Shown piece after piece: positions 5,605-8,583 of a DNA stretch of 35,900 nt. The stretch is taken from the NCBI GenBank assembly GCA_017853685.1, contig JAFMJD010000007.1:1-35900 (forward strand), written 5' to 3'. The notes below the pieces were generated by a model. The model was not told the origin of the DNA. It saw only the letters and a list, made by a program, of their open reading frames with translations, and did no database searches. The DNA is from Actinomycetota bacterium. GTDB taxonomy: Bacteria > Actinomycetota > Acidimicrobiia > Acidimicrobiales > Ilumatobacteraceae. Each line of letters opens with the position of its first letter. The first letter of the stretch is position 1. Both the position numbers and the translations under genes were made by a program.

Positions 5605-6405
5605 GTGCTCTACGAGTTGTTGCGAGATCGCATCCGCGCATCGGAACCCGTGGTGCTCGCCACGGTGATCGAGGGTCCGGGCGTGGGCGGAAGATTGCTG
5701 GTGTGGCCCGGCGCTGATGCCCAGGGAAGCCTCGGTAATTCCGAATTGGACCGCATCGTCGCCCGCGACGCGCTCGGCGAACTCGAGGCCGGCAACACCC
5801 TCGTACGGCACTACGGCCCGAACGGCGAGACCACCCCCGAAGATCTCGCAAACACCCCGATGGTGAGCGTGTTCATCGAATCGTTCGCCCCGCCGCCCCA
5901 GATGTGGATTTTCGGTGCAGTGGACTTCACGGCCGCCTTGGCGAAGGTCGCCAAGGTGCTCGGCTACCGCGTGACCGTGTGCGATGCGCGCGAGGTGTTC
6001 GCCACGCGCCGCCGCTTCCCGATGGCCGACGAAGTGCTCGTGACCTGGCCCGGGCCGGTCTTCGAAGAGCGCGGATCGTCGCTCGGCCCGCGCGATGCGG
6101 TGTGCATCCTCACCCACGACCCCAAGTTCGATGTCCCTGCGGTGCGCGGCGCGCTCGCCACCCGTGTGGGCTACGTGGGCGTGATGGGCTCGCGCAAGAC
6201 GCACAGCAAGCGTCTGGAGCGCCTCGCCGAGGTGGGGGTGTCGTCGCCCACGGATCTCGCCCGTCTCATGTCACCGATCGGACTCGACCTCGGCGCACGT
6301 ACGCCCGAGGAGACTGCGGTGTCGATCTGCGCGGAGATCATTGCGCTGCGCACCGGTCGGCGGCCCCCATCGCTGCGTGATGGATCGGGACCGATTCACG
6401 CCTGA
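5605..6405 (+). CDS. XdhC family protein with C-terminal Rossmann domain
   Basis: A 266-residue protein beginning at GTG (5605) with an XdhC-like N-terminal portion (VVLATVIEGPGVGGRLLV) and a full XdhC C-terminal Rossmann domain (PF13478). Typical features are WIFGAVDFTAALAKVAKVLGY, the strand VTVCDAREVFA, LTHDPKFDVPA and GYVGVMGSRKTHSKR. It probably works with the short protein upstream (5280-5597) in Moco sulfuration or delivery for the cox enzyme. The first nucleotide-binding glycine motif reads FGAVDF, not the usual GxGxxG, so dinucleotide binding may be altered. It ends 22 bp from the convergent NlpC/P60 gene. Confidence 0.87.
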   Translation: MLYELLRDRIRASEPVVLATVIEGPGVGGRLLVWPGADAQGSLGNSELDRIVARDALGELEAGNTLVRHYGPNGETTPEDLANTPMVSVFIESFAPPPQMWIFGAVDFTAALAKVAKVLGYRVTVCDAREVFATRRRFPMADEVLVTWPGPVFEERGSSLGPRDAVCILTHDPKFDVPAVRGALATRVGYVGVMGSRKTHSKRLERLAEVGVSSPTDLARLMSPIGLDLGARTPEETAVSICAEIIALRTGRRPPSLRDGSGPIHA

Positions 6406-6427
6406 ACCGTCAACGTCGTTGGGCCGG

Positions 6428-7138
6428 TCAGTTGCCGGGTGAGCCGACTTTCATCCAACGCACACGACGCACGATCGCCGGGCTCACCGTGACAGTGGCA
6501 CCGCGATTGGGTGAGTGCACCATGGCTTGTCCCACACCGAGGGCCAGCATCACGTGACCCGGGTAGTACAACAAGTCGGCCGGTTGCACGGCGGCGCGTG
6601 ACGAACGACGCACCATCCGGATCTGCTTGAGCGACTGCCGGGGCAACGACACACCCACCTGCGACCACGCCCAAGCGGTGAGACCCGAGCAGTCGAAGGC
6701 CTGGCCGGGATTCGCCTGGAACTTGCGATACGGCACGCCCACCTGCGTGAGCGCCGACAGCAACACCACCATGCGCTCCTGCGACGCAAACCGCCACGCA
6801 CGAGCCAGATCGACTGCAGAGATTCCGGCCGCGTCGGCCACGAGGGGCACGAGTTCGTCGAGGCGTTCGTCGTACTCGGACACGCCGTACCAGAGGCTCC
6901 ACAGTGCCGCTGACGCCGCACGCGCAATGGCGTTGGGGCGGGCTGCCACCGCGGGGCGTGCGGCAGAGAACACCCGAGCGAAGCCGGGTGTACCCACCAC
7001 CGGCGTGCGCACCGACACCACCGTGGCGTGGGCCGCATTCGAACCAACCAAAGGAGCGGCACCCACGACGAGCGTGGAGATGCCAAGCGTCGCCACGACA
7101 ACACGCGCCGTCCATCGCTTGTTGGCTCCACGACCCAT
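6428..7138 (-). CDS. Secreted NlpC/P60 peptidoglycan hydrolase
   Basis: A 236-residue exported protein. Residues 1-37 form a signal peptide: basic GRGANKRWTAR, a hydrophobic core, then AHA before TVV, a plausible signal peptidase I site. The C-terminal NlpC/P60 domain (about 120-230) has the catalytic Cys150 in FDCSGLT, His195 in YPGHVMLAL and a third polar residue around His208. Such enzymes cut D-Glu-mDAP or similar bonds in stem peptides of peptidoglycan. ATG at 7138 was chosen for its strong ribosome site (AAGGGGA, about 5 nt upstream) and the signal peptide that follows directly. It sits antisense within the cox gene run and has its own promoter region with direct repeats (7207-7263), so it is probably regulated separately and is not a cox gene. 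Confidence 0.9.
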   Translation of the reverse strand: MGRGANKRWTARVVVATLGISTLVVGAAPLVGSNAAHATVVSVRTPVVGTPGFARVFSAARPAVAARPNAIARAASAALWSLWYGVSEYDERLDELVPLVADAAGISAVDLARAWRFASQERMVVLLSALTQVGVPYRKFQANPGQAFDCSGLTAWAWSQVGVSLPRQSLKQIRMVRRSSRAAVQPADLLYYPGHVMLALGVGQAMVHSPNRGATVTVSPAIVRRVRWMKVGSPGN

Positions 7139-7206
7139 GACGTCCCCTTGGCAACGACTCCGCCCTCGGCGCACCCGGGCGAACCGAGCGCAAAGAGATT
7201 GCGGAA

Positions 7207-7236
7207 AGGTTACAACCGCTGCGACGGTTCCGTCAC
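7207..7236 (-). promoter_or_regulatory. Putative sigma-70-type promoter of the NlpC/P60 gene
   Basis: Read on the minus strand: GTGACG (-35, 7236-7231), 18 nt, then TAACCT (-10, 7212-7207). This would give an untranslated leader of roughly 60 nt before ATG 7138. The leader contains a possible stem CTCGG/CCGAG. The -35 overlaps the first GTCACAT repeat. Confidence 0.45.
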
Positions 7237-7263
7237 ATCCGGACCGGTCTCTGTCACATTCGG
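7232..7263. repeat. Two direct repeats GTCACATYCGG spaced 21 bp (candidate operator)
   Basis: GTCACATCCGG at 7232-7242 and GTCACATTCGG at 7253-7263 differ at one position, and their starts are 21 bp apart (two helical turns). A weaker relative, GTTACA, is at 7209-7214. They lie over and upstream of the inferred NlpC/P60 promoter, so one or two response-regulator dimers could bind one helical face. In mycobacteria the regulator MtrA recognises GTCACA-like repeats near cell-wall hydrolase genes; assignment to MtrA here is a guess. Confidence 0.45.
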
Positions 7264-7292
7264 CTCTGGGTTCGGCCCGCCCGGGGTTGCCT

Positions 7293-7321
7293 CCCCCCGA
7301 GACGGGGCCCACAGTGGGGGG
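7293..7321 (+). promoter_or_regulatory. Hairpin that could mask the ribosome site of the MobA-like gene
   Basis: CCCCCC (7293-7298) can pair with GGGGGG (7316-7321), which abuts the ATG at 7322 and contains its only ribosome-site-like sequence. A competing smaller stem, CCCCG/CGGGG with loop AGA, would free the G-run. Functional relevance is unproven; C- and G-runs are common in high-GC DNA. Confidence 0.25.
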
Positions 7322-7876
7322 ATGCAACGCAGCGTGGCCGTTCTGCTCGCCGCCGGGGGAGGCACCCGGTTCCAGGGGGCCACCCACAAACTCCTCGCTC
7401 CCCTGCGGGGTCGCCCGGTGTACCAGTGGGCCGTGGAGCACGCCCGGTCCGCGGGCCTCGAGGTGTGGGTGATCACCGGAGCCGCCCGGCTCGAGCCCAT
7501 CGACGGGGTGCGGTTCGTGCACAACCCCCGATGGTCCGAGGGCCAGGCCACCTCGCTGCAGTGCGCCGTGCAGGCGGCCGCGGCCGAGGGACTCGATGCC
7601 ATCACCGTCGGCCTCGCCGACCAGCCATTCGTGGCCCCCTCCACATGGCGCGCCGTGAGCACCGCAACGAGCCCGATCGCCGTTGCCTCCTACGACGGCG
7701 TACGCGGGAATCCGGTTCGACTCGCCGCATCGGTCTGGGACCTGCTCCCGGCCGAAGGGGACCTTGGAGCACGTAGCCTGATGATCGAACGACCCGATCT
7801 CGTCGAGGACATCGCCGCAGACGGATCGAGCGCCGACATCGACACCCTGGAGGACCTCGCGCGATGGAACTCGTGA
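7322..7876 (+). CDS. MobA-like NTP transferase (molybdenum cofactor cytidylyl/guanylyltransferase)
   Basis: A 184-residue nucleotidyltransferase of the MobA/MocA type. The nucleotide-binding motif LAAGGGTRF is at 9-17 with Lys23 in the following THKLLAPL, the metal-binding Asp100 in LADQPF (98-103), and later GNPVRL and ADIDT motifs. In bacteria with xanthine dehydrogenase/CO dehydrogenase-type enzymes, this family attaches CMP (MocA) to molybdopterin, which fits the cox context. The start at 7322 follows directly on a G-run. The stop overlaps the start of coxG by 13 nt, showing coupling between the two genes. MocA is more likely than MobA from context, but sequence alone does not settle CTP versus GTP. 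Confidence 0.87.
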   Translation: MQRSVAVLLAAGGGTRFQGATHKLLAPLRGRPVYQWAVEHARSAGLEVWVITGAARLEPIDGVRFVHNPRWSEGQATSLQCAVQAAAAEGLDAITVGLADQPFVAPSTWRAVSTATSPIAVASYDGVRGNPVRLAASVWDLLPAEGDLGARSLMIERPDLVEDIAADGSSADIDTLEDLARWNS

Positions 7877-8583
7877 ACGAATTCACCGTCAACCGTCCGA
7901 TCGAGCAGACATGGGCCACGCTCACCGACGTGCCCACCATTGCACCGTGCCTGCCGGGGGCCGCGCTCGAGGGTGTGGACGGCTCCACCTATCACGGCGT
8001 CGTAAAGCTCAAGGTGGGCCCGATCCTCGCCAACTTCAAGGGCGATGCGTCGTTCGTCGAGAAAGACGATGTCAACCACCGCGCCGTGCTCAAGGCCTCG
8101 GGCCGCGACACCGGCAACAAGGGCAACGCCGCCGCCGACATCACTGCCGAACTGCACGCAGTCGACGCCAACACCACCAAGGTGAGGGTGGCCACCGATC
8201 TCAAGATCACCGGCAAGTTCGCCCAGTTCGGACGCGGAGCAATGCAGGAGATCTCCAACAAGCTCCTCGCCGAGTTCGTGAGCAACTTGGAACAGCTCAC
8301 CGCCGCGCAGGCCGCCGCCCCCGCCGCATCGGCAGGTGCTGCCGAGAGCGCCGATGGCGCAACGCCCACGGCAACCGAGAGCGCGGCTGCCACTGATCGT
8401 CCGGCCACCGCGAATGCCGGCAGCGGCACGTCGTCGGTGTCTGCACCCAAGGCCGCCGATCACGACAACGTGCTCGACCTCGGCAAGTACGCCGGCGGTG
8501 CGATGCTCAAGCGCTTCACGCCCGTTGCCGGCGGACTCTTGGTGCTCATCGTGCTGTTCCTCCTGCGTCGCCGCCGCAGCTGA
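7864..8583 (+). CDS. coxG: CoxG: SRPBCC-domain protein with C-terminal membrane anchor
   Basis: A 239-residue protein. Residues 1-145 form a CoxG/SRPBCC lipid-binding-type domain, starting MELVNEFTVNRPIEQTW and including CLPGA, hallmarks of carbon monoxide dehydrogenase subunit G. An Ala/Thr/Ser-rich linker (about 148-200) leads to one transmembrane helix (about 217-234, ending LLVLIVLFLL) and the basic tail RRRRS, so the globular domain should face the cytoplasm. CoxG is known to link Mo-CO dehydrogenase to the membrane and to shuttle quinone. It overlaps the MobA-like gene by 13 nt. Its presence favours a membrane-respiratory role for the Mo-hydroxylase of this locus. Confidence 0.9.
   Translation: MELVNEFTVNRPIEQTWATLTDVPTIAPCLPGAALEGVDGSTYHGVVKLKVGPILANFKGDASFVEKDDVNHRAVLKASGRDTGNKGNAAADITAELHAVDANTTKVRVATDLKITGKFAQFGRGAMQEISNKLLAEFVSNLEQLTAAQAAAPAASAGAAESADGATPTATESAAATDRPATANAGSGTSSVSAPKAADHDNVLDLGKYAGGAMLKRFTPVAGGLLVLIVLFLLRRRRS

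Follow-up and report, generated by a model that had tools for sequence, protein, structure and literature searches.

The window (the whole 35.9-kb stretch of DNA analysed here) comes from a 2.8-Mb draft genome in 234 contigs, 85.7% complete and 6.8% contaminated. It encodes a 236-residue NlpC/P60 domain protein (nlpC, 6428–7138, minus strand; Pfam NLPC_P60, 45 bits against a cut-off of 23), whose translation begins with what looks, by eye, like a signal peptide. Divergent from it lies a MobA-like nucleotidyltransferase gene (7322–7876, plus strand; Pfam NTP_transf_3, 95.6 bits), and the two start codons (nlpC ATG at 7138, minus strand; MobA-like ATG at 7322, plus strand) flank an intergenic region of 183 bp (7139–7321), the putative promoter of nlpC and the location of the site studied here. 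Ahead of the nlpC ATG, direct reading gives a Shine–Dalgarno-like AAGGGG (7144–7149, minus strand). XdhC/CoxI-like and CoxG-like genes surround the divergent pair (5605–8583). A search with the window's NlpC protein gave a match in all but one of 150 genomes of the Ilumatobacter family (149). The MobA-like neighbour is kept in many relatives: of 91 upstream regions, 59 show a MobA-like motif on the opposite strand.

The first-pass annotation described helically phased GTCACAT repeats in this gap. Its words are present where it placed them, all on the plus strand: GTTACA at 7209–7214, GTCACATCCGG at 7232–7242 and GTCACATTCGG at 7253–7263, the latter two lying 21 bp apart and matching at 10 of 11 positions. 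Oriented towards nlpC, they read TGTGAC at −120 and −99 and TGTAAC at −76 relative to the ATG. As evidence the literal GTCACAT repeat is weak, because a direct repeat of this quality (at least 10/11, spacing 9–33) arises in 5.25% of 2,000 shuffles of the 183-bp gap and because paired GTCACA words (gaps 2–20) are not enriched across the window's own genome, with 4 pairs against 3 in a reversed control. The whole window holds 32 such direct repeats, against 13.5 in 30 shuffles. GTCACATNCGG occurs six times in the genome and not at all in the reversed control; the four sites outside the window fall in or between genes, none recognised by eye as a wall gene. The expected enrichment of the literal words near envelope genes was thus not seen, no wall-hydrolase gene being recognised at the other copies, and we rejected the 21-bp GTCACAT pair as a conserved element.

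The words could instead be parts of some other control element of nlpC. Riboswitches are known upstream of actinobacterial wall-hydrolase genes, and TGTGAC resembles half a CRP site. Control by a riboswitch or a CRP/GlxR-type site is nevertheless extremely improbable: the window gives no Rfam match at gathering score (and one chance-level match at a relaxed score), and the gap has no TGTGA-N6-TCACA with fewer than three mismatches, its best candidate (three mismatches) lying outside 7207–7263. Both candidates were rejected.

An 11-bp array at nlpC promoters of relatives

A different repeat is visible upstream of nlpC in related genomes. Among 28 of 30 fetched upstream regions (L034 and L040 were omitted, their contigs ending before the promoter) we noticed recurring words such as ATGACGAA, GTTACGAA and GTTGCG. 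With TKDCG as the half-site, this motif-defining set contains 37 pairs at a spacing of exactly 11 bp; shuffles give 0.81 ± 0.88 and the opposite strand gives 5. Because the motif had been derived from these same sequences, a fresh set of promoters was fetched from 40 other genomes, mostly stronger NlpC matches; a second G140 copy and a G073 promoter close to a contig end were excluded. The fresh set holds 47 pairs (2.60 ± 1.76 in shuffles). At least one pair occurs in 30 of the 40 promoters, compared with 2.5 after shuffling and 3 on the opposite strand, and none occurs in the other 10. A helically phased direct-repeat site is therefore present at related nlpC promoters in the family, which supports this part of the first-pass annotation.

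The consensus half-site is close to RTKACG, arranged as direct repeats exactly 11 bp apart. A fuller layout appears in L243, where ATGACGAAAAGGTTACGAACGAG is followed by TTGATT and then by ATTGCAGTTTGATGTCGATAGTCT; here the first pair can be read as lying upstream of a −35-like TTGATT and the second inside the spacer, with a TANNNT −10 directly after it. Across 65 promoters from 17 genera carrying the array, a pair is present in 53 (in at least one promoter for 15 of the 17 genera) and at least two pairs in 36. In 34 of the 65, TANNNT follows a pair of the spacer type. Genera g2, g4, g6, g10 and g25 together have a pair in 2 of 23 promoters, the division into array and non-array genera having been made after the result was known. 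A strict pattern for the second pair plus its −10, run over 150 genomes, returned 45 matches in 39 genomes; 31 adjoin nlpC, and 17 of these come from genomes outside the motif-defining set. Away from nlpC the strict pattern gave 14 matches, fewer than the reversed control's total of 25, and these were not used as a set; one of them (G004) is probably an nlpC promoter split over contigs.

The fixed distance at which one pair precedes TANNNT in many nlpC promoters would also suit promoter elements of an alternative sigma factor, with no operator involved. Extra pairs farther upstream argue against this, as do the pairs beside other genes and those within the window's genus, whose orientation and distance from the start both vary. 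We regard the sigma-factor explanation as very unlikely.

The window's copy of the putative operator

Excluding the window's genus, we derived a weight matrix from 100 pairs spread over 55 promoters. Within the gap it matches best at 7196–7218 on the plus strand (AGATTGCGGAAAGGTTACAACCG, 14.5 bits), with half-sites ATTGCG and GTTACA 11 bp apart (7198–7214). This is the top score in the whole window, and 1 of 3,000 shuffles of the gap does as well. The GTTACA that the first-pass annotation had called weaker is thus one half of the best pair, ATTGCG-N5-GTTACA, whose partner at 7198 it had missed; this 11-bp pair describes the helical phasing better than the 21-bp GTCACAT spacing does. Among single half-sites of the gap the best, GTGACG (7231–7236, minus strand, score 11.0), overlaps the GTCACA at 7232. 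The second GTCACAT corresponds to a weaker half-site, GTGACA (7252–7257, minus strand, score 2.7), which lies 21 bp farther from nlpC and aligns with ATGTCGA in two genomes of the same genus, G023 and G042.

By the standards of the family this copy is weak and rearranged, its 14.5 bits falling below the tenth percentile (15.2) of array-bearing genera, and a site inside an open reading frame at 2744 scores almost as much (14.2 bits). The nlpC promoters of G023 and G042 carry stronger pairs (17.7 and 21.8 bits; 0 of 500 shuffles as good). In the alignment these share the strand of the window's pair but are placed differently; operator sites have apparently undergone turnover in this genus. Arrays in relatives conform to tandem RTNAC half-sites with an 11-bp period, and so does the window's own pair, whose first half-site has G in place of A. 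From the best match at 7196–7218, together with the best half-site falling within the annotated word at 7231–7236, we conclude that the window site is probably real but degenerate, and that the governing rule is 11 bp rather than GTCACAT at 21 bp. The window copy would then be a plausible, if weak, member of a family operator.

The same low score and rearranged layout, with literal words near chance, could also arise if the array were real in relatives and the window copy had decayed, the words and the 7198–7214 pair being leftovers or coincidence and control of nlpC having been lost in the window's species. We think this unlikely, given a match equalled by 1 of 3,000 shuffles at a location fixed a priori, the stronger pairs at the nlpC promoters of G023 and G042, and the operator-like pairs that other wall genes of the window's genome retain.

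The −35/−10 pair proposed for nlpC by the first-pass annotation found no counterpart in a sigma-70 consensus scan (0 matches). A putative −10, TAACCT (7207–7212, read 7212–7207 on the minus strand), is suggested by the alignment, where it falls opposite GTACCGT and GTACTCT, immediately upstream of the G023 and G042 start codons. The GTTACA half-site overlaps it, so that an initial assignment of GTTACA at 7209 as a −10 box and nothing else was revised to allow both readings. GTGACG (7236–7231, minus strand) is possibly the −35, judging from its 18-nt spacing to TAACCT. In two genomes of the same genus (L014 and L015) nlpC looks leaderless, TANNNT ending 6–7 nt before the ATG; the window's nlpC, unlike these, has a longer leader with AAGGGG.

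Other genes beside operator-like pairs

We searched seven genomes for RTKACG-N5-RTKACG and obtained 72 sites, against 19 for the reversed pattern. Within a subset of 32 pairs containing TTACG (chosen after the matches had been seen), 8 adjoin peptidoglycan hydrolase genes: NlpC twice, M15 twice, SpoIID, M23 twice and an SLT/peptidoglycan-binding protein. This last gene belongs to the window's own genome and starts 7 nt from its site, and a second kind of M23 protein also adjoins an operator-like pair. Further neighbours of TTACG pairs include WhiB, secreted proteins with no Pfam match and sdhC (by eye). Two more, DapB and a DUF4015 glycosyl hydrolase, sit beside pairs in the genome of the window itself. 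Among the 40 pairs lacking TTACG, whose neighbours were scanned in part, one nlpC (G042) and one ftsE were recognised; many of these pairs fall in coding sequence. Genes around the matches were called with a home-made codon-position heuristic, followed by a Pfam check for named genes; by eye or from coordinates we recognised sdhC, the ftsE of four genomes out of five, and the nlpC neighbour in G038.

A tighter pattern, adjusted after G019, G038 and G012 and then run on twelve different genomes, found 8 sites in 5 of the 12, against 1 in the control. Their neighbours are a YkuD protein, an Rpf-type transglycosylase, WhiB (twice), a NAGPA phosphodiester glycosidase, a mechanosensitive channel, one protein without a Pfam match and one unclear case, several of the eight being on the divergent side. 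The wall-hydrolase share here is 2 of 8 (YkuD and Rpf-type). The notion of a conserved wall-regulon site thus holds for the lineage (30 of 40 nlpC promoters, other peptidoglycan enzymes, WhiB and secreted proteins) but not for the GTCACAT motif in which it was first framed.

Some targets are restricted in range. In the strict pattern, three ROK sites and five ftsE sites recur, each confined to a single genus, and ftsEX was rejected as a family-wide target: five g20 genomes carry the site there, compared with 2 of 28 ftsE promoters elsewhere. The ROK-family gene (Pfam in two of three) is preceded by TTGCG-N6-TGTCG-N-TANNNT in three genomes of one genus (L188, L189 and L190), with a sigma-factor-like gene, identified by eye, divergent from it in two of them. 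All three genomes examined of the window's genus have an RTKACG 11-bp pair in a divergent promoter between genes that, by eye, are sdhC-like and membrane pyrophosphatase-like (G000:C135, L146; G023:C56, L157; G042:C163, L305). WhiB genes lie near operator-like pairs in three genera (L286, L378 and L379). Another recurrent neighbour of such pairs is a protein type that lacks a Pfam match and has an RILDTR-like or RIYD-like motif (L281, L283, L289, L296 and L376).

A candidate regulator and its proposed mode of action

OmpR-type regulators commonly use direct repeats about one turn apart (PMC3353115). MtrA sites are given as an 8-bp repeat with a 3-bp linker, RTAACAAT, in Corynebacterium glutamicum (PMC3353115), as a 9-nt repeat spaced by 2 in Mycobacterium tuberculosis (PMC6265350) and as KTRACC-N5-GTKACN in Streptomyces coelicolor (PMC5650626); a GTCACAgcg motif appears in PMC2945938, and PMC9602371 concerns Dietzia. 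The C. glutamicum targets include mepA, mepB, nlpC and rpf2, with repression from sites near the −10 and activation from sites upstream of the −35 (PMC3353115). The family array shares with these systems the direct repeat, the 11-bp period, a half-site near R-T-N-A-C and wall-enzyme targets. It differs in that the half-site mostly ends in G (RTKACG), that nlpC promoters often carry two pairs, one of them in the −35/−10 spacer, and that the pair is inverted relative to nlpC in the window's genus. In Staphylococcus aureus, the 17-bp WalR motif TGTHH-N6-WGTNDD (PMC10746227) likewise places half-sites about one helical turn apart and directs autolysin genes. WalKR of Firmicutes therefore resembles the family system in spacing and in its wall-lytic targets, but half-site letters and phylum differ.

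The window's own genome has two response regulators close to MtrA, at C13 (271 bits) and C2 (242.6 bits), both below the 300-bit cut-off of the curated NCBI equivalog. That cut-off is reached in none of 61 family genomes, compared with 1 of 14 control genomes, presumably Corynebacterium glutamicum. For the C13 regulator, MtrA is both the best NCBIfam match and the best solved match (M. tuberculosis MtrA, 2gwr, 207.7 bits), just ahead of RegX3 (200.7 bits); its score to YycF is 228 bits, against the 271 to MtrA. C13 DGRLVDVHVRRLRTKV aligns opposite DTRLVNVHVQRLRAKV of MtrA, a segment that we take to be the recognition helix. A kinase-like open reading frame lies downstream of regulators of the C13 type. 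C2 scores higher to CseB (255.6 bits, also below cut-off) than to MtrA. A regulator tree separates the C13 and C2 types into clades of their own, beside a third that appears RegX3-like; of the tree's 29 inner branches 7 are starred, the C13 clade not among them, and two rows are very long.

These regulators leave room for another OmpR-family protein as the reader of the array, either the C2-type second MtrA-like system or a RegX3- or WalR-like one. Besides its 242.6 bits to MtrA, the C2-type regulator of the window's genome (G000) adjoins a kinase whose best NCBIfam match is MtrB (183 of 450 bits). In G019, a Germane-domain lipoprotein comes after the divergent kinase of the second MtrA-like system (L356:9901–12056); the order resembles that of MtrB and LpqB, with LpqB after MtrB. 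One-turn direct repeats are moreover common among OmpR-type proteins (PMC3353115) and also fit WalR (PMC10746227). Against C2 stands the g2 genome G001, whose best regulator is of the C2 type yet whose nlpC promoter has no pair (1 of 5 promoters in g2 overall). We consider another OmpR-family reader unlikely.

The MtrA-like OmpR-type regulator at C13 is accordingly our best candidate for binding the site, and a mode of action like MtrA control is the best-supported mechanism. The nlpC promoter of the window would be a degenerate member of a family-wide operator, consisting of tandem half-sites near RTKACG with an 11-bp period, or one helical turn. A phosphorylated response regulator of the OmpR/PhoB type, most likely the MtrA-like one at G000:C13, would bind these half-sites head-to-tail, in many relatives at one pair upstream of the −35 and at a second within the −35/−10 spacer. 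Once bound, the regulator would obstruct RNA polymerase or adjust its activity at the peptidoglycan endopeptidase gene, in keeping with the other wall enzymes of the regulon; in the window repression is the likelier outcome, because the pair overlaps the putative −10. Taken as a whole, a degenerate copy of the family operator under the MtrA-like C13 regulator is the explanation towards which we lean, with modest confidence. Counting against it are the narrow lead of MtrA over RegX3 as C13's solved match, the 10 fresh promoters without a pair, the low score of the window copy and the shifting operator position within its genus. The link to MtrA-type regulators drawn by the first-pass annotation is supported by the half-site and the 11-bp period, which match published MtrA sites. 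We do not claim membership of the MtrA regulon proper, because none of the 61 family genomes has a regulator above the curated MtrA cut-off.

A broader proposal is possible, if doubtful: that one MtrA-like regulator, distinct from curated MtrA and reading RTKACG tandems, runs wall hydrolases of the Ilumatobacter family (NlpC/P60, M15, M23, SpoIID, SLT, L,D-transpeptidase and Rpf-type), together with WhiB and possibly DAP synthesis, with a double operator in the nlpC promoter and with regulator and sites lost together in small-genome genera. If true, this undescribed wall-remodelling regulon, with a defined operator in a little-studied actinobacterial family, would show MtrA-type wall control of actinobacteria in an early form and would bear on the origin and divergence of MtrA/WalR-type wall control. 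Among the matches listed by literature searches (MtrA motif; lineage), no paper describes such a regulon by title or abstract. Co-occurrence of regulator and array by genus hints at a link but does not prove one, and small genome size is a confounder. Genera g6 and g10 possess a divergent C13 type with no array (0 of 5 and 0 of 4 promoters). Among the genomes placed on the tree, those of g2, g4 and g25, and likewise of g3, have their best-scoring regulator outside the C13 clade; g2, g4 and g25 promoters carry a pair in 2 of 14 cases, compared with 53 of 65 in array genera.
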